In this document: piece after piece, positions 23,807 to 43,728 of the stretch
Position numbering within the stretch: position 1 is the stretch's first letter
Layout: every line of letters begins with the position of its first letter
Assembly (NCBI GenBank): GCA_003168265.1
Contig: PMSV01000019.1
Coordinates: 62,001-126,000, forward strand
Origin: Chitinophagaceae bacterium
Lineage (GTDB): Bacteria > Bacteroidota > Bacteroidia > Chitinophagales > Chitinophagaceae
Reading direction: 5' to 3'
Length of the DNA stretch: 64,000 nucleotides
The notes under the pieces: model-generated
What the model was told of the DNA's origin: nothing
The model's database searches: none
Seen by the model: only the letters and a program-made list of their open reading frames with translations
Translations under genes and position numbers: made by a program

Positions 23807-24568
23807 CTACCCTATCCTTATTTCAATATTGTTGTTGCTGAGATAATTCTTCAAATCCCTGATCCCGATCTCCCCGAAATGAAAAATGCCTGCAGCCAGG
23901 GCCGCATCGGCCGAAGCTTGTACAAAAACTTCAAGAAAATGCTCCATCCTTCCTCCTCCCCCGCTGGCAATGACCGGAACCGGCAGGCTTGTCGAAAGTT
24001 CCCTTGTTATATCAAGAGCGAATCCTTTCCTGGCTCCGTCATGGTTCATCGAAGTCAGCAGGATTTCACCCGCGCCTCTTTCTACCCCTTCCCGGGCCCA
24101 ATCCACGCAAAGTTTTTCAGTTTTAGCCCTCCCTCCATTCAGGTAAACATACCAAAAACCATCCTCCTCCTTTTTTGCATCGATCGCAAGGACGATGCAC
24201 TGGCTGCCAAACTCCCGTGAAAGTTCCTGAATCAGACCTGGATTCCTGAAAGCGGATGTATTGACTGAAATCTTGTCTGCACCGCTGTTTAGTAATATCT
24301 GAACATCCTCTACCGAAGAAATTCCGCCTCCGACCGTAAAAGGAATATTGATCTGCCTTGCGATCCTTCGAACCAGTTCACTCAGAGTCTTTCTTTTTTC
24401 CACAGTAGCGGTGATATCCAAAAAAACCAATTCGTCCGCCCCCTCGCTTGCATATTGGGCTCCGAGTTCCAACGGATCACCCGCATCCCTCAGGTTCACA
24501 AAATGGGTACCTTTCACCGTGCGTCCATCCTTGATATCCAGACAGGGTATGATTCTTTTGGCAAGCAT
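23807..24568 (-). CDS. hisF: Imidazole glycerol phosphate synthase, cyclase subunit
   Basis: 253 residues, a beta/alpha barrel that closes the imidazole ring using ammonia from HisH, giving IGP and AICAR. Motifs: [20 protein letters not shown] (catalytic Asp near residue 11), [38 protein letters not shown] and [13 protein letters not shown]. It has full length. It lies 3 bases from the LysE gene and 6 bases before the nucleoside hydrolase. Cytoplasmic, acting as a complex with HisH. Confidence 0.97.
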
Positions 24569-24571
24569 TTA

Positions 24572-25201
24572 TCAGGATTTAGAGCTGAAAGCAACTTTGA
24601 TGCCCAGGACAATCAGCAGGGTTCCCGTGATCTTTTTTTGCCAGGCAGCCCATTTTGCCGAACGGCCAATTCTTCCCGTAAAAAACCCAAATAAAAAAGC
24701 CACTGTCATATTCACCAGTGTGCCGCCCATATTAAACCAGATGCCCATAAAAAGGATGCGGGAAGCGGGTTGCGTCGTCCCGGTCCCTATAAACTGAGGA
24801 AGAAAGGCCAGGAAAAACAAAGCCACTTTAGGATTGAGCAGGTTGGTCAATGCTCCCTGCCAGAAGATCCTTTTCATAGAAGACCTTTCCTTAGTGAGTC
24901 CCTGTGACCGTAAGGCTGACCTGTCTGATAAGGCACGAATGCCCAGGTAAACCAGGTAGGCTGCACCCGCATATTTGATCAGGCTAAAGGCAAAGGCGGA
25001 TTCGGCCAGTATTGCAGAAAGGCCCGCTACCGCGGCTGCAAGGTGAACCAGGCAACCCGCTGAAATGCCGAGAGCTGAAATGATGCCCGCTCTCGTGCCC
25101 TGCGACCCGCTTCTTGCCATAACATATATCATATCATTTCCTGGTGTAAGATTTAACAGAAGGGCAGCCGTTGCAAAAAGTAAGAAATTATCCGGTATCA
25201 T
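24572..25201 (-). CDS. LysE/RhtB-family exporter
   Basis: 209 residues with six hydrophobic segments. It starts FLLFATAALLLNLTPGNDMI, the typical LysE/RhtB opening with the Leu-Thr-Pro-Gly motif, followed by SGCLVHLAAAVAGLSAIL, YAGAAYLVYLGIRAL and FWQGALTNLLNPKVALFFLA. The family exports amino acids and related small molecules. It is embedded between hisA (4-base start/stop overlap) and hisF (3-base gap), so it is expressed with the pathway. An attractive guess is overflow export of His, Trp or an intermediate; the sequence cannot show the substrate. Confidence 0.88.
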   Translation of the reverse strand: MIPDNFLLFATAALLLNLTPGNDMIYVMARSGSQGTRAGIISALGISAGCLVHLAAAVAGLSAILAESAFAFSLIKYAGAAYLVYLGIRALSDRSALRSQGLTKERSSMKRIFWQGALTNLLNPKVALFFLAFLPQFIGTGTTQPASRILFMGIWFNMGGTLVNMTVAFLFGFFTGRIGRSAKWAAWQKKITGTLLIVLGIKVAFSSKS

Positions 25202-25914
25202 ATGAACTGTTTGAATTCTGAGAGTTTGATCCTTCCCTCATAGATCGCCTTTCCCACGATCGTGGCGAAGCAACCTGCTGTTTCTAGTTTCTCCAGGTCT
25301 TTCATGGAGCTCACACCCCCGCTGGCGATCAGGTACAGTTCGGGGAAGGCGGCGATAATCTTTTGGTAAAGTTCCAGGGCCGGGCCCTCTAATTTTCCAT
25401 CTTTACTGGTATCTGTGCAAAAGATCTGCTTTATTCCCACGTGATTCCATTTTTTTATAAACTCCAGTACCCCGATATCTGTTTTTTCGAGCCATCCGGA
25501 AATCGCTATTTTCTCCTCCTTCACATCAGCGCCTATTAAGAATTTTTCCGCCCCGTATTCAGCAATCATATCCTTTAAAACTGACTCATCTTTGACAGCA
25601 ATGCTCCCCATGGCAGCTAGGGACGCACCGGAATTAAATACGATCTGCAGATCCTCCTGTTTTTTTATCCCCCCGCCAAAATCGATCACAAGCGAGGTCC
25701 TGTTGGCAATCATTTCCAGCACTTTCCAGTTCTTAACGGCGCCGATACGGGCACCGTCCAGATCCACCAGGTGCAAGCGCATTAGTCCGGCATCTTCAAA
25801 TTGCATTGCCACTTCAAGGGGATGTTCATTGTAAATTTTTTTCTGGCCATAATCTCCCTGGGTCAGCCTGACGCATTTCCCTTCAATGATATCAATGGCC
25901 GGAATGATCTGCAT
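25198..25914 (-). CDS. hisA: ProFAR isomerase (HisA)
   Basis: 238 residues, a barrel enzyme that isomerises ProFAR to PRFAR, step 4 of histidine synthesis. Motifs: IIPAIDIIEGKCVRLTQGDY (catalytic Asp near residue 8), LHLVDLDGARIG, VIDFGGGIKKQEDLQ and FCTDTSKDGKLEGP (second catalytic Asp). HisA and TrpF are related folds doing the same chemistry, and both are in this unit. It lies 9 bases after hisH and overlaps lysE by 4 bases. Confidence 0.97.
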   Translation of the reverse strand: MQIIPAIDIIEGKCVRLTQGDYGQKKIYNEHPLEVAMQFEDAGLMRLHLVDLDGARIGAVKNWKVLEMIANRTSLVIDFGGGIKKQEDLQIVFNSGASLAAMGSIAVKDESVLKDMIAEYGAEKFLIGADVKEEKIAISGWLEKTDIGVLEFIKKWNHVGIKQIFCTDTSKDGKLEGPALELYQKIIAAFPELYLIASGGVSSMKDLEKLETAGCFATIVGKAIYEGRIKLSEFKQFI

Positions 25915-25923
25915 AATTAATTC

Positions 25924-26514
25924 TTAAAGGCTGAGGAAATTTTTCAAAATCCCGGAGCCGGTTTCGGCGCTTTTTTCCGGATGGAACTGAACCCCATAGA
26001 AATTATCCCGGTTCAGAGCCGCGCTATAGGGTTTGATATAATCCGTCTCTGCGATCGTGTGCATCCCCAAGTCCGCATAATAGCCATGCACGAAATAGCA
26101 ATAGCTGTTCTCAGGCACAGCATCAAAGAGTCTGGTCTTCAGGCCGCAGATCGTATTCCATCCGATCTGCGGTGTTTTGAGGGCGGTTTGATCCGGAACG
26201 AATTTTTTAACCCTCTCAGCGAAAATCCCGAGACAATCCGTGTCGTTTTCTTCGGAATGGGAACACAAGAGCTGCATGCCAAGACAGATCCCGAGAACCG
26301 GTTGTTTGAGACCCCTGATGAGCAGATCCAGTTTCCGATCGCGCAGGTAATTCATAGCCGTGCTGGCCTCACCCACTCCGGGGAAAATGACCTTATCCGC
26401 TGCAATGATCTGCTGTGGATCATCGCTGACCTCAGCCGATACCCCAATTCGTTCTAATGCATAAAGCACCGATTGTATATTTCCCGCATTGTATTTGATA
26501 ATGGTCAATCCCAT
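25924..26514 (-). CDS. hisH: Imidazole glycerol phosphate synthase, glutamine amidotransferase subunit
   Basis: 196 residues. It hydrolyses glutamine and passes ammonia to HisF. Motifs: FPGVGEASTAMNYL, the nucleophile Cys in LGICLGMQLL, and the His-Glu pair in VQFHPEKSAETG. It begins only 5 bases after the trpA stop, so there is no room for a separate his promoter or leader. This is the junction where the second half of the his pathway is tied to the trp operon. Confidence 0.97.
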   Translation of the reverse strand: MGLTIIKYNAGNIQSVLYALERIGVSAEVSDDPQQIIAADKVIFPGVGEASTAMNYLRDRKLDLLIRGLKQPVLGICLGMQLLCSHSEENDTDCLGIFAERVKKFVPDQTALKTPQIGWNTICGLKTRLFDAVPENSYCYFVHGYYADLGMHTIAETDYIKPYSAALNRDNFYGVQFHPEKSAETGSGILKNFLSL

Positions 26515-26519
26515 GAATC

Positions 26520-27290
26520 TTATTTTAAGACTGCATCCATAAATCCCTTTACGGATTCCTTAAGGGAAGCTGAGTTTTCAAGAGCCCTTATGAATGCCGT
26601 CCCGATAATGGCTCCTGCTGCGTGTCGGCATGCAGATTGAAAACTCAGGCGGTCCTTAATCCCGAAACCCACCAGCACCGGATTCTTAAGATTCATTGAT
26701 CGCAGACGGCTCAGGTATTTGTCCACTTCCTCAAAATCCTTGTCCTTTCCTGTAATGGACGAAGAAGATACGGCATACAGAAAGCCGTTGCTGAATGCAT
26801 CGAGCCTTCGGATTCTTGCATCAGAGGTTTCCGGCGTTACAAGGAAAATAAAATCCAGCCCGTATTTTTTCAGGATGGCTTCATATTCCAATTCATATTC
26901 ATGTTCCGGCAGGTCCGGCAGGATCAACCCATCAATCCCTGCTACTGCACAGGTCGCGCAGAATTTTTCAAACCCAAACTGCAATATGGGATTCATATAA
27001 CCCATCAATACCACGGGCAGATCTATCTCTTTCCTGAAATCCTTTAACTGTTCAAACAGCTTCGCGATCGTCATCCCATTGCACAAAGCCCGGCTCCCGC
27101 TTGACTGGATCACTGGGCCATCAGCCAGGGGATCGCTGTAAGGCATACCCAGTTCGATCATATCAGCTCCATTTTCCTGCAGCAATTTCATCAGTGTGAG
27201 CGTGCTATCCAGTTCAGGAAAACCTGCCGTGAAATAAATATTGAGAATTCGTTCTTTTTTTTTCTTAAATAACTGACTGATCCTGCTCAT
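26520..27290 (-). CDS. trpA: Tryptophan synthase alpha chain
   Basis: 256 residues from ATG 27290 ([16 protein letters not shown]); an upstream in-frame TTG at 27314 is less likely. It cleaves indole-3-glycerol phosphate to indole for the beta subunit. Motifs: [35 protein letters not shown] (catalytic Glu), [15 protein letters not shown] (catalytic Asp) and [12 protein letters not shown]. The start lies 26 bases inside trpB, so translation is coupled. Confidence 0.97.
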
Positions 27291-28518
27291 AGCTGTTTTT
27301 TGGCTGTACTTCAAAAGCCTTCATAAAAGCGTCCAGGTCCTTGTCTCCGCGGCCACTGAGACACAGAACGGTAATATCCTTTGGGTTAAACCTTATTTCT
27401 TTCAGTGCAGCCAGGGCATGAGCGCTTTCCAATGCCGGAATGATCCCCTCCAGCCTTGTAAGTTCAAATGCCGCATCCAGGGCTTGCTGATCTGTCGCGC
27501 TCAGGAATCGGGCCCTCCCGCTTTCAAATAGATGGGCATGAAGGGGGCCGATGCCCGGATAATCCATACCTGCCGAAATGCTATGCGGCTCTATAACTTG
27601 TCCGTCCTCTGTCTGCATGACCAGGCTCTTACTGCCGTGAAGCACACCGGTCTTCCCGAGTCGGGTGGTAGCCGCACTATGCCCGCTATATACACCCAGA
27701 CCGGCCGCTTCCACCGCGATCAATTCCACGCTTTCCTCATCAAGGAAATGATAAAAAGCTCCTGCCGCATTGCTTCCTCCTCCGACACAGGCAATAACCT
27801 TTGTAGGCAATTCCCTGCCCTCCTGTTCTTTAAGCTGAGCCCTGGTCTCCTCACTGATCACGCTCTGGAAGCGGGCCACCATATCGGGATAAGGATGAGG
27901 TCCAACCACACTCCCGATCACATAATGGGTATTATCGGGATGGTTGATCCAATCACGGATCGCTTCATTGGTCGCATCCTTCAGGGTCTGGCTACCGCTG
28001 GTTGCAGGAACGACTTCAGCCCCCAGCATCTTCATGCGGGCCACATTAGGGGCCTGCCTTTCAATATCCTTCGAACCCATATAGACCACGCATTCGATGC
28101 CCTTAAGTGCGCAGATCGTGGCCGTCGCCACTCCATGCTGTCCCGCGCCTGTTTCGGCAATGATCCTTTTCTTACCCAGTCTCAATGCCAATAAGACCTG
28201 GCCGATCGCATTGTTGATCTTATGCGCCCCCGTATGATTGAGGTCCTCCCTTTTGAGATAGATTTTTGTCCTGTAATGTTCACTCAGCCTTTTTGCATGG
28301 TAGAGAGGAGAAGGCCTGCCGACATAATCCTTGAGCAGTGCCTTGAATTCCTGCTGGAAGGAATCCTCATAGATGATCCGGAGGTATTGGTCACGGAGCT
28401 CTTCCACATTGCGGTAAAGCATTTCCGGAACGTATGCCCCTCCGAAATTACCGTAGTAACCAAAAATATTAGGTTGCTTATAACTCCCCCTGTTTAATGA
28501 AATATTTCTGTTGATCAT
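27265..28518 (-). CDS. trpB: Tryptophan synthase beta chain
   Basis: 417 residues, a PLP enzyme that condenses indole with serine. Motifs: [33 protein letters not shown] with the PLP Lys, [18 protein letters not shown], and [15 protein letters not shown]-type phosphate-loop sequence ([10 protein letters not shown]). It is a standard-length TrpB1. The first 15 residues are somewhat longer than in short forms. It overlaps trpA and follows the acetyltransferase gene by 13 bases. Confidence 0.97.
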
Positions 28519-28531
28519 TTTTGATTAACAT

Positions 28532-29032
28532 TTAAAGAAACAATTGAAGGAATACCAGGTCCAGCCATTGCTCGAATTTGAATCCCACTTCTTTCAGCAG
28601 CGCGGCTTCCCGGAATCCGAATTGCTTATGCATCCTGATGCTAGCCTGATTTTTCAGCTCAATGCCGGCAATTATTGTATGCATGCCCATGCCCCTTGCC
28701 GCATCGATGGTCGCTTTCAGCAATTGCTTCCCGATTCCCCGGCCCCGGCAGTCGCTGCGTACATAAACCGAATTCTCTACAGTAAAGCGATAGGCCTGCC
28801 AGTTGCGAAAGGGGCCAAAACTGCTGAAACCCAGAATTTCTCCATGCTCTTCCGCTACAAAAACCGGATATCCTTCCTTATTTTTTTGGTCAAACCAGGA
28901 TTTCCTTGATTCCATCGTTTGCAGGTCGTAATGGAATACCGCCGTCGTATTTGCGATGATCTCATTGTAGATCGAGAGGATCCCAACTAGGTCTGCCTCC
29001 GCCGCCGGCCTGATATTCAAGACTTCCTCCAT
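28532..29032 (-). CDS. GNAT acetyltransferase (phosphinothricin-acetyltransferase-like) in the trp operon
   Basis: 166 residues from ATG 29032 (MEEVLNIRPAAEADL). GNAT features are NEIIANTTAVFHY, the acetyl-CoA loop VRSDCRGRGIGKQLLKA, and IRMHKQFGFREAALLKEVGF. The layout with TTAVFHYD fits the Pat/YncA-type N-acyltransferases, which act on amino-acid-like compounds such as phosphinothricin or methionine sulfone. It lies between trpF (5-base gap) and trpB (13-base gap), so it is expressed with Trp synthesis. Its acceptor could be an aromatic amine or analogue, which is a guess. Confidence 0.85.
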   Translation of the reverse strand: MEEVLNIRPAAEADLVGILSIYNEIIANTTAVFHYDLQTMESRKSWFDQKNKEGYPVFVAEEHGEILGFSSFGPFRNWQAYRFTVENSVYVRSDCRGRGIGKQLLKATIDAARGMGMHTIIAGIELKNQASIRMHKQFGFREAALLKEVGFKFEQWLDLVFLQLFL

Positions 29033-29037
29033 CTGAA

Positions 29038-29673
29038 TCAATTTTTTAATTCTTCTACAAATTGCCGGACTTTTTTCAAGTCCTTCACCCCTGCACTCAG
29101 CTCAAATTTACTGTTGATGTCCACGGAAAACATTTTTTTGGCTACAGACTCCTTTGCAAAATCCTTCAGTTTATCTGCATCTTCTTGCTCAATGCCACCG
29201 CTGAGGAAGAAAAGCTTATTGATCGCTTTATTTTTCAGGAGTTCCCAGTTGAATTTTTTGCCAGTTCCCCCATATCCTGCTCCTTCCGTATCGAATAGAA
29301 ACATATCGCAGCTATCTTCAAAAGGCTTGGCGATCCATTCGATCGGATCATTATCCCCCATCCTGAAGACCTTGATCACACTGATATAGTTGGATACTTT
29401 TTCACAAAACCTCGGGGTTTCATCTCCGTGCAATTGCACCATGTCCAGTCCATACTCATCGACCTGCCTCATCAGGTCCTCATAGGTGGTATTGACAAAG
29501 ACTCCCACTTTTCCCAGCCTTAGTTTCTCCTTTTTAAGCCTGGGGCCGGAAATATGTTTAGAGACAAAACGGGGAGACCTGGGATAAAAAATGAATCCGG
29601 CAAAATCGACTCCTGCATCATCGAGGGTCTTAACCTGGTCGAGCTGGGTCATCCCGCAAACCTTAATCCTCAT
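29038..29673 (-). CDS. trpF: Phosphoribosylanthranilate isomerase
   Basis: 211 residues from ATG 29673 (MRIKVCGMTQLDQV); a TTG two codons upstream is rejected. It isomerises PRA to CdRP. Motifs: KVCGMT with catalytic Cys, FAGFIFYPRSPRFV, VQLHGDETPRFCE, MFLFDTEGAGYGGTGKKFNW (catalytic Asp) and FLSGGIEQEDADKL. It overlaps the end of trpC by 11 bases. Confidence 0.96.
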   Translation of the reverse strand: MRIKVCGMTQLDQVKTLDDAGVDFAGFIFYPRSPRFVSKHISGPRLKKEKLRLGKVGVFVNTTYEDLMRQVDEYGLDMVQLHGDETPRFCEKVSNYISVIKVFRMGDNDPIEWIAKPFEDSCDMFLFDTEGAGYGGTGKKFNWELLKNKAINKLFFLSGGIEQEDADKLKDFAKESVAKKMFSVDINSKFELSAGVKDLKKVRQFVEELKN

Positions 29674-30460
29674 GAACAAAGTTTTTTAGCTTGTTTACAA
29701 ATGAGGCAAATGCAATCCCCGGTTCTTTCTCTTTCATAAAATGTTCACCGATCAAAAACCCGCGAAAGCCATTTTTTTTGAATAAGGTTATTTGTTCAAG
29801 CGAACTGATCCCGCTCTCCGTCACTTTCACAAGTTCTGTGGGAATGAGTTCAGCCATTTTAAGAGAACGATCCATATTCACCGTAAAGGTCTTGAGATTC
29901 CGGTTATTAATCCCTACAATTCCTGTTTCTTCACAGATATGTCCGATTTCATCTTCCTCATGTAGTTCAAGCAATACTTCAAGGCCCAGGCTCCTTGCAA
30001 GCCTTGCCAAAGATCTTATTTCCTGCCTTGTTAAACAGGCCGCGATCAGTAAAATTGCATCCGCCCCGATGGATTTGGCTTCCAGGACCTGGTATTCGTC
30101 AACGATGAACTCCTTTCTGAGGATGGGGATCGGATTGAACCGAGCCTCTTCGAGGTCGGCATTGCTCCCTCCGAAGAACTCATAATCTGTGAGAATGGAC
30201 AATGCAGCAGCTCCATGGTTTTCATAGGCTGCCGTAATCTGTTTTACATCGGCTCCCTCATGGATCCATCCTTTGGAAGGGGATTTCCTTTTAAATTCCG
30301 CGATGATTCCTGTGAGATCTTCGTTCAAAAGATACTCTCTCAGGGAAAGAACGGGCCTTGAAAAATCTTCCGTCTGTTCCAGCAAATCAACCGGAAGTGA
30401 CAATTTCCTTTCGGCGACCAAAATTCTTTTATGCTCAATAATCCTGTCTAATATATTCAT
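29663..30460 (-). CDS. trpC: Indole-3-glycerol phosphate synthase
   Basis: 265 residues. It closes the indole ring from CdRP. Motifs: IIAEFKRKSPSKGWIHE (catalytic Lys and Glu), ALSILTDYEFFGGS, ILRKEFIVDEYQVLEA (second Lys), GINNRNLKTFTV and VTESGISSLEQI. It is monofunctional, not fused to TrpF. Its ATG overlaps the trpD stop by 4 bases. Confidence 0.97.
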   Translation of the reverse strand: MNILDRIIEHKRILVAERKLSLPVDLLEQTEDFSRPVLSLREYLLNEDLTGIIAEFKRKSPSKGWIHEGADVKQITAAYENHGAAALSILTDYEFFGGSNADLEEARFNPIPILRKEFIVDEYQVLEAKSIGADAILLIAACLTRQEIRSLARLARSLGLEVLLELHEEDEIGHICEETGIVGINNRNLKTFTVNMDRSLKMAELIPTELVKVTESGISSLEQITLFKKNGFRGFLIGEHFMKEKEPGIAFASFVNKLKNFVHED

Positions 30461-31452
30461 GACTGAAGAGAGATTAATTTTTTAAGCATGGACAGGGCCT
30501 GACTGCTTTCCAGGCTTTCAACGGAAGCCTGGTAGGCCAATTCATAGGTCTTATATCTGCCCGTTCCCTCAAGAGCCATGGCTGCATTGGCTAATACGAC
30601 AGCATTTTGCGCCCAGCTTCCCCGGCCTTCAAGTATCCGGTAAAATATCTTGGCTGCTTCTTCCACGGTGGATCCGCCACTGATATCCCCGGGCTCGACA
30701 AGCCTTTTTCCGAGCTGCTGCGGCGTCATGATCTTCTCTCCGCGATTCGTGATGACCTTGGTATCTCCGGTAAGGGAGATCTCGTCATATCCATCCAGGC
30801 TATGTATAATCGTAAAGGCCCCCCCCGTTTGTTGCAATAAATAATTATAGATCCGGCCCATTTCCAGGTTGTAAACACCTACGAGTTGGTAGGCTGGGAA
30901 AGCAGGGTTGACCATCGGTCCCAGCATGTTGAAAAAAGTGCGGATCCCCAGGTTTTTACGGATAGGCCCCACCGTTTTCAAGGCCGGGTGGAACAGGGGA
31001 GCATGCAGAAAACAGATATTGGCATGGTCCACTTCTTTTTTTAGCCTTCCCGCATCATTTTTGAACTGGTAACCCAATTGCTCCATTACGTTGGAGGCCC
31101 CGCTAATCGAAGAAGCCCCATAGTTCCCGTGTTTAGCAACTTTTTGCCCTGTTCCCGCCACGACAAAACAGGCCAGAGTCGAAATATTAAATGTGTTCTT
31201 CCCGTCTCCGCCCGTACCTACGATATCTAAGGTTGATTGACCATCCAGATCAATCCGTACGCAGAGTTCCAGTAATGCATCCCTGAATCCCTGCAATTCG
31301 TCGATCGTGATGCTGCGCATAAGAAAAACGGTAATAAAAGAAGCGATCTCGCTTTCATTGTAGACTCCCCTGGAAATATTGATCAGCACTTCTTTTGCCC
31401 TTTCACGGCTCAGGGTCTTGTGCTCAAACAGGTATTGTAATATCTTTTTCAT
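30457..31452 (-). CDS. trpD: Anthranilate phosphoribosyltransferase
   Basis: 331 residues. It transfers phosphoribose from PRPP to anthranilate. Motifs: LDIVGTGGDGKNTFNISTLA (PRPP loop), KHGNYGASSISGASNVMEQL, and GMRTF-equivalent LGIRTFFNMLGPMVNPA. It has full length and is not fused to TrpG. Its ATG lies at the 3' end of repeat copy B (31450-31535), and that start codon can pair in the repeat's stem. Confidence 0.97.
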   Translation of the reverse strand: MKKILQYLFEHKTLSRERAKEVLINISRGVYNESEIASFITVFLMRSITIDELQGFRDALLELCVRIDLDGQSTLDIVGTGGDGKNTFNISTLACFVVAGTGQKVAKHGNYGASSISGASNVMEQLGYQFKNDAGRLKKEVDHANICFLHAPLFHPALKTVGPIRKNLGIRTFFNMLGPMVNPAFPAYQLVGVYNLEMGRIYNYLLQQTGGAFTIIHSLDGYDEISLTGDTKVITNRGEKIMTPQQLGKRLVEPGDISGGSTVEEAAKIFYRILEGRGSWAQNAVVLANAAMALEGTGRYKTYELAYQASVESLESSQALSMLKKLISLQS

Positions 31453-31535
31453 CTGAATATCTTTAGTTTTTATTTCTATCAGATAGAACCTCGCATATAT
31501 GGCGCTGTAAAAAAAGACGCAAATGCCCTGCCCAT
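31450..31535 (-). repeat. About 90-nt 5'-UTR repeat, copy B (ends at the trpD start codon)
   Basis: On the minus strand this copy contains GGGCATTTGCG, then GAGGTTCTATCTGA, then AATATTCAGATG-like sequence whose ATG is the trpD start. ATCTGA and TCAGAT (forward 31479-31484 and 31451-31456) are complementary around a 22-nt loop, which places the trpD start codon in a stem. It abuts copy C directly. A minus-strand mini-ORF of 18 codons (31479-31535) spans it. Confidence 0.6.
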
Positions 31536-31627
31536 CTGAATATTTAATGTTCTCTCAACTTGCCAGATGGAACCTCCCTAATTCATCTCCTGTTTGTGCC
31601 AAATTGCGCATGCCCTGTCGGTCTCAT
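31532..31627 (-). repeat. About 90-nt 5'-UTR repeat, copy C (trpG-trpD gap)
   Basis: This copy follows trpG immediately; its first ATG (31625-31627) overlaps the trpG TGA stop. The minus strand shows ATGAGACCG, GGGCATGCGCAATTTGG, GGGAGGTTCCATCTGGCAAG and AATATTCAGATGGG. CCATCTG and CAGATGG form a perfect 7-bp inverted repeat (31532-31538, 31564-31570) with a 25-nt loop. Together with copy B it fills the whole gap between trpG and trpD. Confidence 0.6.
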
Positions 31628-32199
31628 TTTTTTAACCAGTTTCTTAATATTTTTTCGCCGAGCGGTGTCAGAACGCTTTCCGGATGGAACTGCACCCCTT
31701 CCACATCATATTGCTTATGCCGAAGAGCCATGATATAATTATTATCATCAAAGGCCGTCACTTCCAGCGATTCCGGAAAATTCTCAGTGCCCACGATCCA
31801 GCTATGATACCTTCCCGCTTCGAATCGCTCCGGCATTCCCTCGAATAACCGGGAGGAAGCCAGATTTTTATTTGTATAAACCTCGGTGGCCACCCCATGG
31901 TAAACGACGGACAGATTCACGAGCTTGGCTCCAAATGCTTCTCCGATCGCCTGGTGACCGAGGCAAACACCTAAAATGGACTTTTTTGATGCGTATTCCC
32001 TGATCAGGGGAAGGAGCAACCCGGCTTCAGCCGGGACCCCCGGACCAGGAGATAAAACGATCTTATCATAAGCGTTTATTTCCTCCAGGCCAATCTGGTC
32101 ATTGCGGAAAACATCCACGCTTTTGCCCGAGATCCGACTGATGAGCTGGACCAGGTTATAGGTAAAGGAATCGTAATTATCGAAAACCAGGATTTTCAT
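31624..32199 (-). CDS. trpG: Anthranilate synthase component II (glutamine amidotransferase)
   Basis: 191 residues, a type-1 glutamine amidotransferase supplying ammonia to TrpE; it may also serve p-aminobenzoate synthesis as PabA. Motifs: MKILVFDNYDSFTYNL, KIVLSPGPGVPAEAG, nucleophile Cys in LGVCLGHQAIGEAFG, and VQFHPESVLTPLGEKIL. Its stop codon overlaps the first ATG of repeat copy C. 41 bases separate it from trpE. Confidence 0.96.
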   Translation of the reverse strand: MKILVFDNYDSFTYNLVQLISRISGKSVDVFRNDQIGLEEINAYDKIVLSPGPGVPAEAGLLLPLIREYASKKSILGVCLGHQAIGEAFGAKLVNLSVVYHGVATEVYTNKNLASSRLFEGMPERFEAGRYHSWIVGTENFPESLEVTAFDDNNYIMALRHKQYDVEGVQFHPESVLTPLGEKILRNWLKK

Positions 32200-32240: not shown

Positions 32241-33659
32241 TCAAATCAGTGAGCCGGCTGTCTCAATCGCTTTTTTTAATGCACCTAACTTATTATTTAC
32301 TTCCTGCAACTCGCTTTCCGGTTTTGAGGCCGCCACAATGCCCGCCCCAGCCTGGTAAAACAGGGTATTCTCCTTGCTTAAAAAGGTTCGGATCATGATT
32401 GCATGAACACAGTTTCCATCAAATCCCATAGTTCCTATGCAACCCCCATAATAGGACCTGGAACCGGGCTCAAAGTCGTCTATCAGGCTCATGGCTTTGA
32501 ATTTGGGAGCGCCGCTCAGGGTTCCTGCGGGAAAGCTGGCCGCTAATAATCCAAATGGGTTTTGTCCCGTCGCCACTTTTCCCTCGACCTCGCTGACCAG
32601 ATGGATGACATGGGAATAATACTGGATTTGCCTGTATTGGACGACTTTCACATCCTCACAAAGCCTGCTCAGGTCATTGCGCGCAAGGTCAACCAGCATC
32701 ACGTGTTCAGCATTTTCCTTAGCGTCTGTAAGTAATTTTTCCGCCATTTTCTGATCCGTCTCGTCGTCGCCGCTCCGCTTAAAAGTTCCTGCTATCGGAT
32801 GCACCACCGCTTTGCCGTTTTGTATGAGCAATTGGGATTCCGGGGATGAGCCGATCAGTTTATAATCTCCATAATCGAAGAAAAACAGATAAGGAGAAGG
32901 ATTTATATTTCGCAAAGCCCGATAGACATTGAATTCATCTCCGATAAATTCCTGCCCAAACCTCCTGCTAAGCACAATCTGAAAAACATCTCCCCGGTAA
33001 CAACCGTCAATACCTTTTTTAACCATCTCGATATATTCTTCATCACTCATATTGGTACTTTCTGGTCCGGTAGCCAGGAAAGGAAAGGCCGGGACGTCGC
33101 GGTTGCGGATCAGAGATTCCACCACATCAATTTCGCTTTCCAGTCCGGCAATGCGGTTTTCGCAGATATAGAGTTCATCCTTAAAATGATTCACTGCGAT
33201 GACATATTGGTAAAGCCGGTAACGCATTAGCGGGATCCGGTTAGGCTCCCGGCCACGGTCCCTGAACCGGATGGTCTCGAAAAACTGAACCGCGTCATAG
33301 GTAGTGTAACCAAAAAGGCCCTGAACTGCACGGACGGATTTATCATTTATTTTTTCGACATCGAAACGTTGCATGAATTCCCATAAGAGAACAGGAACAT
33401 CGGAACCATTGTTTATCGAAACTCTTTCAGGGGATTGGCCCGGTAACTTGAACTCTATACTTTCCATGTCTGTAATTTCAATTCCCGCTATCGCATTTAT
33501 GCCGATAAAAGAATAACTGTTCTCGGCTACATGGTAATCTGTGCTTTCCAGCAGGATGGTATCCCGGAAGCGGTCCCGGAGCCGCAGGTAAATGCCAACC
33601 GGAGTATATACATCCGAAAGGATCCTCTTAAACTGGGTTTTTATCTCGACTCTTTTCAT
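32241..33659 (-). CDS. trpE: Anthranilate synthase component I
   Basis: 472 residues. It converts chorismate to anthranilate. The N-terminal regulatory domain has the LLES motif (DTILLESTDYHVAENSYSFI, near residue 38) that binds tryptophan, so feedback inhibition is expected. The chorismate-binding domain has IVLSRRFGQEF, GSSPESQLLI, HPIAGTFKRSGDDETD, LARNDLSRLCEDV and FPAGTLSGAPKFKAM. It is the first structural gene behind the trp attenuator, with repeat copy A ending at its start codon. Confidence 0.97.
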   Translation of the reverse strand: MKRVEIKTQFKRILSDVYTPVGIYLRLRDRFRDTILLESTDYHVAENSYSFIGINAIAGIEITDMESIEFKLPGQSPERVSINNGSDVPVLLWEFMQRFDVEKINDKSVRAVQGLFGYTTYDAVQFFETIRFRDRGREPNRIPLMRYRLYQYVIAVNHFKDELYICENRIAGLESEIDVVESLIRNRDVPAFPFLATGPESTNMSDEEYIEMVKKGIDGCYRGDVFQIVLSRRFGQEFIGDEFNVYRALRNINPSPYLFFFDYGDYKLIGSSPESQLLIQNGKAVVHPIAGTFKRSGDDETDQKMAEKLLTDAKENAEHVMLVDLARNDLSRLCEDVKVVQYRQIQYYSHVIHLVSEVEGKVATGQNPFGLLAASFPAGTLSGAPKFKAMSLIDDFEPGSRSYYGGCIGTMGFDGNCVHAIMIRTFLSKENTLFYQAGAGIVAASKPESELQEVNNKLGALKKAIETAGSLI

Positions 33660-33785: not shown

Positions 33786-33814
33786 CAAACAAAAAGCCCC
33801 GAATTGATCGGGGC
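33786..33814 (-). terminator. Intrinsic terminator of the trp attenuator
   Basis: On the minus-strand transcript, GCCCCGA, a 5-nt loop and TCGGGGC (33796-33814) are followed by UUUUUGUUU (33787-33795). It lies 37 bases after the trpL stop codon and 127 bases before trpE, so it is a conditional terminator within the leader. Its 5' arm can pair instead with CGGGGC at 33858-33863 at the end of the leader ORF. Confidence 0.92.
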
Positions 33815-33851
33815 CCGTTATGTTTGTTGTTTTCAATAAACAAGGATCGTG

Positions 33852-33992
33852 CTACAAGCCCCGCAAAAGAAGGTCTGTATGCCACCACCACAACTGAAAA
33901 TTGAAACACTTGTTTGTCATCTTATCTTTCATCTTATCTTTCATCTTATCTTTCATCTTTTCGATCATCTTATCTGACTGATTTTTTTCCAT
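33852..33992 (-). CDS. trpL: trp operon leader peptide with three consecutive Trp codons
   Basis: The minus-strand leader ORF ends QLWWWHTDLLLRGL and stops at TAG 33852-33854. Three UGG codons in a row (33882-33890) are far beyond chance and stand 5' of an intrinsic terminator. Six in-frame ATGs could start it: 33992, 33968, 33956, 33944, 33932 and 33920, giving 46 to 22 residues. The longest form begins next to the predicted transcription start. Ribosome stalling at UGG would leave CGGGGC (33858-33863, codons for Arg-Gly) free to pair with the terminator's 5' arm. A ribosome reaching the stop would cover it and allow termination. Confidence 0.92.
   Translation of the reverse strand: MEKNQSDKMIEKMKDKMKDKMKDKMTNKCFNFQLWWWHTDLLLRGL
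33918..33953 (-). repeat. 12-bp tandem repeat (three perfect units) inside trpL
   Basis: The forward-strand unit CATCTTATCTTT occurs at 33918-33929, 33930-33941 and 33942-33953, with degenerate partial units to about 33977. On the leader transcript each unit encodes Met-Lys-Asp-Lys. The unit is a multiple of three, so gain or loss keeps the Trp codons in frame but changes the number of AUG codons and the leader length. Confidence 0.85.
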
Positions 33993-33999
33993 TGCATTG

Positions 34000-34030
34000 C
34001 AAATATGGAGGCTTTTTTGAAAACTACCAA
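34000..34030 (-). promoter_or_regulatory. Predicted trp operon promoter
   Basis: On the minus strand TTG (34028-34030) is followed after 22 bases by TATTTGC (33999-34005), close to the Bacteroidota TTTG/TAnnTTTG pattern. Transcription would begin near 33992-33994, at the first ATG of trpL, so the leader mRNA would be almost leaderless. Confidence 0.45.
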
Positions 34031-34049
34031 TTTTTCTCCTTAATTTTTG
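34016..34049 (+). promoter_or_regulatory. Predicted promoter of the acyltransferase-like gene
   Basis: TTTG at 34016-34019, a 21-base spacer, then TAATTTTTG at 34041-34049, about 20 bases before the ATG at 34070. It overlaps the divergent trp promoter region, so the two may interfere with one another. Confidence 0.45.
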
Positions 34050-34069: not shown

Positions 34070-35179
34070 ATGGATCGGTCATCTAACCCCATCTTAGGAC
34101 AAAGACTGCTTTCACTCGACTTTCTGCGTGGATTCATCATGGTATTGCTTGCTCTTGAAAGCACCGGACTCTACGAACATTTATATTCACTCAATAAGCA
34201 CAATGAGGTTCTCGCTCCCTTTCTCATCGAGTTCTTCCACCATCCCTGGAACGGGTTGCGTTTCTGGGACCTTGTGCAGCCTTCCTTTATGTTCATGGCA
34301 GGTGTATCTATGGCTTTTTCCTTAAAAAAACAGGAGGCCATGGGCATAAGCTGGGGGAATTCTTTCCGAAAAACACTTAAGCGCTGTTTCTGGCTTTTCT
34401 TTTGGGGAGTGTTGGATTATGCTGTCAGAGGTTCCCATCTTTCATTTGAGCTTTGGGATGTGCTCACTCAATTGTCCTTCACTACCCTTCTGGCCTTCCT
34501 CATCTTCAGATGGTCGGCAAATGCACAGATAATTGTATGTGCAGGCCTGTTATTGATCACAGAAGGCCTTTATCGTTTCGCCCATGTGCCTGGATTCGAC
34601 CAGCCCTTCACGGACCAGCACAATTTTGGAAATTATATCGACCTGCTATTGATGAATAAGGTCAACAAAGGAGGATGGGTGGCCATCAATTGTATTCCCA
34701 CTTCCGTTCATACGATCGCAGGTGTGCTCGCGGGCAAGCTGCTTATTAGCGGGAAGAACAAGATTCGCACCCTGCTTGCCTGGGCCCTTGTCTGTTTTGT
34801 GTTGGGATACGGGATCGATGCATTGCATATCACGCCTATCATCAAACGCATAGCCACTAGTTCCTTCACACTGGCCTCCCTCGGATACAGTCTTTGTTTT
34901 CTTTCACTCAGCTATTGGGCTATAGATGTCAGAAACCGAAGGAAATATTTGAAGTTCTTCACGATCGTGGGCATGAATTCCATATTTATCTACCTTTTCT
35001 TTGAGATCGTTGGAGATCGCTGGTTCACCGGATACATCACAACCATCAGCAGCAACCTGCTCGCTTATTTTCAAACGCCAGAGGCGCTTATTCTCCTGCT
35101 TTCCTCCCTTTCAGTATTTGCCCTCGAATGGTATTTCTGTTATTTTCTGTATAAGAAGAAAATCTTCTTCAAACTCTGA
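34070..35179 (+). CDS. NagX-like membrane protein (heparan-alpha-glucosaminide N-acetyltransferase-like)
   Basis: 369 residues from ATG 34070 (MDRSSNPILGQRLLSLDFLR). The upstream TTG reading frame only translates the trp repeat region and is rejected. About ten membrane helices follow. The opening RLLSLDFLRGFIMVLLALES is the typical start of the DUF5009/HGSNAT-like family, with HHPWNGLRFWDLVQPSFMFM as the second conserved block and a loop His-Pro. These proteins probably move an acetyl group across the membrane to a sugar. It sits alone between the two amino-acid units in the opposite direction, and converges on the DinB gene. Confidence 0.82.
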   Translation: MDRSSNPILGQRLLSLDFLRGFIMVLLALESTGLYEHLYSLNKHNEVLAPFLIEFFHHPWNGLRFWDLVQPSFMFMAGVSMAFSLKKQEAMGISWGNSFRKTLKRCFWLFFWGVLDYAVRGSHLSFELWDVLTQLSFTTLLAFLIFRWSANAQIIVCAGLLLITEGLYRFAHVPGFDQPFTDQHNFGNYIDLLLMNKVNKGGWVAINCIPTSVHTIAGVLAGKLLISGKNKIRTLLAWALVCFVLGYGIDALHITPIIKRIATSSFTLASLGYSLCFLSLSYWAIDVRNRRKYLKFFTIVGMNSIFIYLFFEIVGDRWFTGYITTISSNLLAYFQTPEALILLLSSLSVFALEWYFCYFLYKKKIFFKL

Positions 35180-41881: not shown

Positions 41882-41890
41882 ATAATAGGC

Positions 41891-41927
41891 ATAAAAAATA
41901 AAAAGGCTTACCGGAGTAAGCCCTTTT
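41891..41927 (-). terminator. Intrinsic terminator of the his attenuator
   Basis: On the minus-strand transcript AAAAGGGCUUAC, a 4-nt loop (UCCG) and GUAAGCCUUUUU are followed by AUUUUUUAU. The stem GGCTTAC/GTAAGCC lies at 41905-41911 and 41916-41922. It sits 39 bases after the hisL stop and just before hisG. Its 5' arm GGCUUAC can pair instead with GUAGGCC at 41964-41970 (7 pairs, one G-U), which overlaps the hisL stop codon. Confidence 0.93.
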
Positions 41928-41966
41928 AGAATAATTATGTTTATTTAATCACATAACACCTCCGGC

Positions 41967-42017
41967 CTACCCTTTTGGATAAGTATGATGGTGGTGAATA
42001 TGATGAATTCGATTCAT
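41967..42017 (-). CDS. hisL: his operon leader peptide with six His codons
   Basis: A 16-residue leader ORF, MNRIHHIHHHHTYPKG, with TAG at 41967-41969. Six His codons among seven successive positions make a histidine sensor. The stop codon lies within GTAGGCC, which mimics the terminator's 3' arm. When His-tRNA is scarce the ribosome stalls on the His codons and GTAGGCC pairs with the terminator's 5' arm, allowing readthrough. When it is plentiful the ribosome reaches the stop, masks GTAGGCC and transcription ends. A second small inverted repeat (TTATGT/ACATAA, 41935-41956) could act in pausing. Confidence 0.94.
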   Translation of the reverse strand: MNRIHHIHHHHTYPKG

Positions 42018-42024
42018 TAATGAC

Positions 42025-43591: not shown

Positions 43592-43620
43592 ATCGCTCGT
43601 TGAATGTATTAAAAGAAAAA

Positions 43621-43717
43621 TGGCAAGTTACTTACATCGCACCGCTACGACCACCTACCCTTGCTGCCTTCCGGCCCTGGGGGAGTTCAGCAGGAGCTGG
43701 CCGTATAAGACTTGCCA
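43621..43717 (-). ncRNA. ffs: Signal recognition particle RNA, small bacterial type
   Basis: The minus strand carries the SRP RNA domain IV signature: GGCCGGAAGGCAGCAAGGG on one side and CTGAACTCCCCCAGG on the other, closing an Ffh-binding hairpin. The ends GGCAAGT (near 43716) and ACTTGCC (near 43622) pair to close a rod of about 97 nt. A T-rich tail (TTTTTCTTTT, 43607-43616) follows, and a perfect -7 box precedes. It guides membrane proteins to the translocon with Ffh. Confidence 0.95.
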
Positions 43718-43720
43718 TCG

Positions 43721-43728
43721 CAAATATA
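43721..43728 (-). promoter_or_regulatory. -7 box of the SRP RNA gene
   Basis: The minus strand reads TATATTTG, an exact TAnnTTTG match, 4 bases before the SRP RNA 5' end. The -33 region has no clear TTTG. Confidence 0.65.

Follow-up and report, generated by a model that had tools for sequence, protein, structure and literature searches.

Comparative evidence for a probable ribosome-mediated transcription attenuator ahead of the trp operon in Chitinophagaceae

The trp operon of a Chitinophagaceae bacterium is, judging from its sequence and that of its relatives, very probably preceded by a ribosome-mediated transcription attenuator (we put this at about 0.92). The element lies on the minus strand of a 64,000-nucleotide stretch of DNA, hereafter the window. 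Its parts (Table 1), their conservation among related genomes and a complementarity that is maintained through sequence change are all observed. An earlier note on this DNA had proposed attenuation of this operon from geometry. The comparison with relatives and a folding model both support the proposal, the response to tryptophan itself being predicted, so that an argument first made from geometry can now be made for the family as a whole by comparison of its genomes.

Table 1. Features of the window associated with the trp leader, the trp and his genes and neighbouring RNA elements (window positions).
Feature	Position	Strand	Remarks
-33-like promoter element	34026..34031	-	ATTGGT (TTTGG in many relatives)
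-7-like box	34000..34007	-	CATATTTG; consensus TAnnTTTG, first base differs
trp leader peptide ORF	33852..33992	-	MEKNQSDKMIEKMKDKMKDKMKDKMTNKCFNFQLWWWHTDLLLRGL; 46 codons + TAG; ATG 7 nt after -7 box
12-bp tandem repeat	33917..33975	-	4.9 copies within the leader ORF, in frame; four codons per unit
Three consecutive Trp codons	33882..33890	-	TGGTGGTGG; predicted stall site; 5' strand of 1:2 hairpin
Antiterminator 5' strand (segment 2)	33858..33863	-	Putative; codons CGG GGC
Terminator 5' arm (segment 3)	33808..33816	-	Contains GCCCCG (33814-33809)
Terminator 3' arm (segment 4) and T run	33791..33802	-	
trpE, first structural gene	32241..33659	-	TIGR00564, E 5e-120, 401.5 bits (below the cut-off of 517.7)
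trpG, trpD, trpC, trpF, acetyltransferase-like ORF, trpB, trpA	26520..32199	-	NCBIfam models; trpF below cut-off
hisH, hisA, LysE-like ORF, hisF	23807..26514	-	NCBIfam models; collinear downstream
His leader with its own terminator	41885-42020	-	MNRIHHIHHHHTYPKG; ahead of hisG (start 41881)
Bacteroidales small SRP RNA	43617-43724	-	99.3 bits

The leader ORF ends in QLWWWHTDLLLRGL, followed by a TAG stop (33854-33852). Eighteen bases separate the last Trp codon from CGGGGC (33863-33858), which makes up the two codons preceding the last one. A spacer of 37 bases leads from the leader stop to the terminator stem, GGGCCCCGA-TCAAT-TCGGGGCTT (33816-33794), which has nine pairs, the two basal ones G-U, and is followed by a T run; the terminator precedes trpE, which starts at 33659. 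CGGGGC has the same sequence as the core of the terminator 3' arm and is the exact complement of GCCCCG in the 5' arm. The earlier note had described a minus-strand leader ORF with WWW before its stop, a stem with a U-run 37 bases downstream and the complementarity of CGG GGC to the terminator 5' arm. The ORF is found with all its elements, coordinates and distances exact, the stem and U-run are present (33816-33791), and the complementarity is borne out to the base. Beyond these elements, we identified a promoter-like box, a 12-bp repeat and a 1:2 hairpin. The repeat adds Met-Lys-Asp-Lys units to the leader ORF, extending it by whole codons; 34 codons precede the Trp run in the window, compared with 7-10 in the other loci whose start could be placed (92 in number). 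Single-sequence folding does not set the element apart from chance: its z is -1.30, and 14 of 200 shuffles give a fold as good or better. The window holds the parts of an attenuator, a short Trp-codon leader ORF and an intrinsic terminator ahead of the first biosynthetic gene, and sequence and folding point to an exclusive antiterminator that would be free during a stall and covered when the ribosome is at the stop.

A search for TrpE in 58 related genomes gave a match in 57 of them. The 30 nearest loci were taken (the window's own and 29 relatives), leaving out five full-length TrpE matches from more distant genomes (G033, G047, G050, G051 and G052), and 80 more loci from records titled Chitinophagaceae, its genera or unclassified Bacteroidota brought the sample to 110. 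All 30 of the nearest loci, the window's included, have a WWWH...G leader and then a terminator, L024 running into Ns. Over the whole sample a trp leader is present in 102 of the 110 loci, and leader and terminator together were found by script in 101. The nine loci missed by the script are L024 (leader present, terminator in Ns), L099 (which starts at a contig end) and L081, L086, L091, L092, L097, L102 and L109, where it finds no leader in the available upstream sequence. Among the 101 leaders found by script, 96 have WWW, and WW or WWG occurs in L085, L098, L101, L103 and L107; five of the 101 rows are duplicates, which leaves 96 non-redundant loci. Many leaders share the C-terminal part WWWHTNSxRG and the N-terminal part is more variable; the conserved portion of the leader is the Trp codon run and the strand beyond it. 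The earlier note had suggested an alignment of related trpE leaders, and had named, as evidence against attenuation, related genomes in which the Trp codons or the complementary segments are missing. Trp codons are present in all 30 nearest loci, and the proposal withstood the search for such relatives.

The 2:3 helix, which the leader strand would form with the terminator 5' arm, shows modest covariation on a fixed alignment, A1, comprising 76 of the 101 script rows (the 25 left out are duplicates and variant leaders). On this alignment 38 of 500 shuffles score as high, and the helix slid by -1 pairs as well as the original (82.3% vs 81.3%). There is little covariation because GGGG and CCCC are almost invariant. 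Because of these G/C runs, and because GVL-type leaders are out of register by one base, covariation on A1 is uninformative for the antiterminator, and we therefore compared duplexes between own and swapped partners. Across the 96 non-redundant loci, the leader tail and its own terminator 5' arm form a duplex of -12.5 kcal/mol on average, compared with -11.2 (sd 0.17) for permuted partners; none of 2000 permutations was as good, in a test that ignores shared ancestry. Shuffled leaders reach a mean of only -6.7 kcal/mol, and with wider segments the own pairing differs from the permuted one by z -7.9 and -8.7 (ancestry ignored here also). Taken singly, the own terminator beats the median foreign one in only 65 (or 71) of the 96 leaders.

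In 15 of the 96 loci no GGGG occurs in the stretch from the Trp codons to the terminator. In 14 of these the own terminator pairs better than the median GGGG-class terminator, through strands that are altered or replaced outright, the exception being L082, which is without a good antiterminator. For instance, CGAGGC pairs with GCCUCG in L016, UUAGGGU with ACCCUAA in L079, and UGUGUCG, located beyond the stop codon, with CGACACA in L065; in Chitinophaga loci ACAG..GCC beyond the stop codon pairs with the inner terminator arm. For six of the 15 (L065, L066, L082, L085, L106 and L108) a foreign GGGG leader pairs as well or better with their terminator, because a run of C is still present there. 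Three other loci (L068, L070 and L077) have an early stop and yet keep GGGG, which either follows the stop or shares one base with it. These sequences suggest that conservation acts on the RNA and not on the peptide.

A different antiterminator strand, in several cases after the stop, with complementarity to the own terminator kept, was also noted in L047, L065, L066, L085, L098, L103, L105, L106, L108 and L110.

RNAalifold, run on the 76 loci with no structure supplied, predicts a 1:2 hairpin in addition to the terminator. This hairpin begins at the Trp codons and closes shortly after the stop, and its inner stem takes in GGGG. Its 16 named pairs form in 84.7% of cells; with the helix displaced by 1 to 3 columns the figure is 35.7-57.1%. 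Changes on both sides are seen in 13 cells, compared with 4.5 in shuffles and 4 to 16 in slid versions; all of these changes fall in the inner stem and the outer stem is without any. Two of five measures are unremarkable relative to shuffles (75 and 96 of 500). At the level of the alignment, the 1:2 pairing is conserved and its covariation moderate only. The hairpin over the stall codons is found in the 76-locus alignment but is weak in the window's own copy, which, as modelled, may read through by default.

To represent ribosome occlusion, the transcript was folded up to the terminator loop and bases under the ribosome (with an assumed footprint that reaches 15 bases back from the P site and 12 bases on from the A site) were barred from pairing. 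The mean number of antiterminator pairs over the 96 loci is 2.7 with no ribosome, 8.6 with a ribosome at the first or second Trp codon, 8.5 at the third and 1.5 at the stop. With the ribosome at the second Trp codon, the antiterminator has more than one pair in excess of that with a ribosome at the stop in every one of the 96 loci, and it exceeds both the stop and the free RNA in 81. In the remaining loci, the window's and 14 others, a stall gains little or nothing over free RNA. The window transcript, taken from 33995, forms 9.0 antiterminator pairs when free, 9.0-9.2 when stalled and 0.4 with the ribosome at the stop; in the model, this copy switches only between the stop having been reached and all other states. 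These values agree with the contention of the earlier note that a stalled ribosome leaves CGGGGC free and a stop-bound one covers it (about 9 pairs at any Trp codon, 0.4 at the stop). Wherever the ribosome stands in the folding model, the complete terminator is the favoured structure at equilibrium, and thus control must be kinetic. Known attenuators are under kinetic control.

In the mechanism that we propose, RNA polymerase would start just ahead of the leader ATG and a ribosome would load near the mRNA 5' end. With ample Trp-tRNA, the ribosome would proceed to the stop and cover CGGGGC, the 3:4 terminator would form, and transcription would end before trpE. With scarce Trp-tRNA, the ribosome is expected to stall at UGG UGG UGG, leaving CGGGGC free to pair with newly made GCCCCG (2:3); the terminator would then not form, and trpE and the genes that follow would be transcribed. 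In most aligned relatives, the 1:2 hairpin (Trp/His codons with post-stop bases, CUCC:GGGG inside) would hide segment 2 unless the ribosome stalls. The weak 1:2 hairpin of the window would let an untranslated leader read through.

A box of the form xAnnTTTG lies 4-9 nt ahead of an in-frame ATG in 93 of the 101 loci (exactly 7 nt in 64), and TTTG or TTGG in the -33 region accompanies it in 89 of the 93; by this rule no such box is found in eight of the 101. Among the window's 68 mechanical ORFs with a length of 150 aa or more, 3 carry a box of this form at the corresponding position. In Flavobacterium psychrophilum the box is reported at -12 to -5 (PMC9723704), and from its position we predict that transcription starts about 3 nt before the leader ATG in the window. 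Given the short distance between box and ATG in the 93 loci, the trp leader mRNA is probably almost leaderless, with a predicted start. A divergent plus-strand ORF (34070-35179), membrane-protein-like by eye, has its probable ATG at 34070, 78 bases from the leader ATG, and two promoters must share this gap.

Mapped relatives rarely have 5' UTRs this short: 5.5% of transcripts are leaderless in F. psychrophilum (PMC9723704), and 5' UTRs of <10 nt make up about 3.7% in B. thetaiotaomicron (PMC7366714). Tentatively, and with somewhat less than even confidence, we offer a joint reading in which the trp (perhaps also his) attenuators of Chitinophagaceae sit on nearly leaderless mRNAs with near-fixed promoter-to-AUG spacing, such that the first ribosome would load on the 5' end as it emerges from RNA polymerase. 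The antiterminator strand would have shifted across the stop between lineages, and drift would have turned the window's copy into a two-state switch, with readthrough in all cases except completed translation. If this is true, coupling would depend on a conserved device, in a phylum with few leaderless mRNAs among those mapped. As the phylum is described as being without Shine-Dalgarno sequences (PMC6847099), the element offers it a natural means of testing how ribosomes on the leader keep pace with RNA polymerase.

The genes downstream of the leader run on the minus strand from 33659 to 23807, and the gap between trpA and hisH is 5 bases. From this collinearity, hisH, hisA and hisF are probably in the same operon as the trp genes (the acetyltransferase-like and LysE-like labels in Table 1 were given by eye). 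If there is one transcript, the trp leader, and hence Trp supply, may set the expression of three his genes. A script applied to 21 hisG loci, among them that of the window, found His-rich leaders in 17, with L170 (the latter part of a split gene) excluded; the leader in L167 looks accidental, which reduces the number to 16.

Other explanations for the leader region have to be weighed against these results. The terminator could be unregulated and the ORF a product of chance, in which case the stem would merely mark a transcript end and the Trp codons would be accidental. The unremarkable single-sequence folding fits this, as does the frequency of weak matches to terminator-bearing models in these genomes, but a Trp-codon leader in all 30 nearest loci does not, nor does complementarity maintained through sequence change. 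Conservation of the leader makes chance very unlikely, to the point of being almost negligible. A different Trp sensor (a T-box, a TRAP-like protein or a riboswitch) might instead act on the same terminator, the peptide being incidental, and leader-terminator layouts are common to such systems. What the relatives conserve, however, is the Trp codon run and the strand beyond it, and the SRP RNA is the sole Rfam family at gathering score in the window, with no match to a T-box; we regard a different sensor as highly improbable.

It is also conceivable that the leader peptide or the terminated leader RNA acts in trans as well, like peTrpL/rnTrpL of Sinorhizobium meliloti. The wide sharing of the C-terminal WWWHTNSxRG and the probable near-leaderless start, which resembles that of S. 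meliloti trpL (PMC7298713), would be consistent with such a role. On the other hand, the end of the peptide tracks the RNA pairing, its residues being altered or gone where segment 2 is changed or lies after the stop, and the N-terminal part of the leader is more variable. An additional function in trans thus appears improbable.

Ribosome-mediated attenuation, the reading that we prefer, is a textbook mechanism and has already been predicted in the phylum in silico, and the element described here lies below Rfam thresholds. The earlier note had treated the mechanism as established in Proteobacteria and carried it over to Bacteroidota; its use in this operon is supported, but as an in silico prediction it is not new to the phylum, since Bacteroid-trp (RF01692) is listed in Table 1 of Weinberg et al. 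2010 (PMC2864571). That element has been called similar to the E. coli leader and placed upstream of the trp operon of F. psychrophilum (PMC6414381), and strong indications of attenuation by leader peptides ahead of amino-acid operons are also reported (PMC9723704). The excerpts available of PMC4833913 and PMC6429828 do not describe the element. In a literature that included few subscription journals, we found nothing on Chitinophaga leader peptides or Bacteroidetes ribosome-mediated attenuation under those names.

The genome searches with Rfam models and with our own model, R1, used stricter filters, at which weak matches are lost. The RF00513 Trp_leader model matches the window's element with 26.1 bits (E 0.004), below its gathering cut-off of 41. 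It was rejected as a survey tool, as none of 39 genomes, the window's own included, exceeded the cut-off and weak matches occurred at many sites per genome. RF01692 (cut-off 49 bits) gave no match in the window and none over the cut-off in 98 genomes of the window's family, its own included; there were five sub-threshold matches in the family, four of them on a trp leader. In a sample of 148 genomes of the phylum it exceeded the cut-off in 11, all from one other family. R1 was built from the 76 aligned leaders, and only matches >50 bits were counted, since below about 42 bits it is unspecific (96 of the 148 phylum genomes match at E <= 0.1). It exceeds 50 bits in 58 of the 98 family genomes, with no such match in the other 40; the score was the sole criterion, irrespective of position before trpE, and the 58 include members of the training set (the window's own genome, G011 and G034). 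In the phylum sample R1 exceeds 50 bits in 3 of 7 family members and in 0 of 141 others. R1 detects a form of the element that the Rfam thresholds miss.

The E. coli trp leader has tandem Trp codons, a 1:2 pairing over them, a G-rich strand that pairs with the G+C-rich 5' arm of the terminator, and a terminator before trpE; its segment 2 lies beyond the leader stop codon. The element described here resembles E. coli trpL (RF00513) in the first four of these features, although the 1:2 pairing is seen in the alignment of relatives and is weak in the window's own copy. Unlike in E. coli, segment 2 of the window is inside the ORF near its end, and the probable transcript start is almost at the ATG. 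In the latter respect the window is similar to S. meliloti trpL, whose RNA starts at the leader ATG (PMC7298713), the window's ATG being predicted to lie within about 3 nt of a putative start; the two differ in phylum and in sequence. Bacteroid-trp shares with the window its occurrence in Bacteroidota, a WWW leader and a leader end that is complementary to the terminator. At the RF01692 loci of the other family, a WWW leader is present in all 13 that were read, and 11 of the 13 leaders end in UCG UGA, with the complement UCACGA in the terminator. The pairing strands of the two forms differ, as do their peptides, such as WWWNNLRQTS at Bacteroid-trp loci and WWWHTNSxRG in the window's family.
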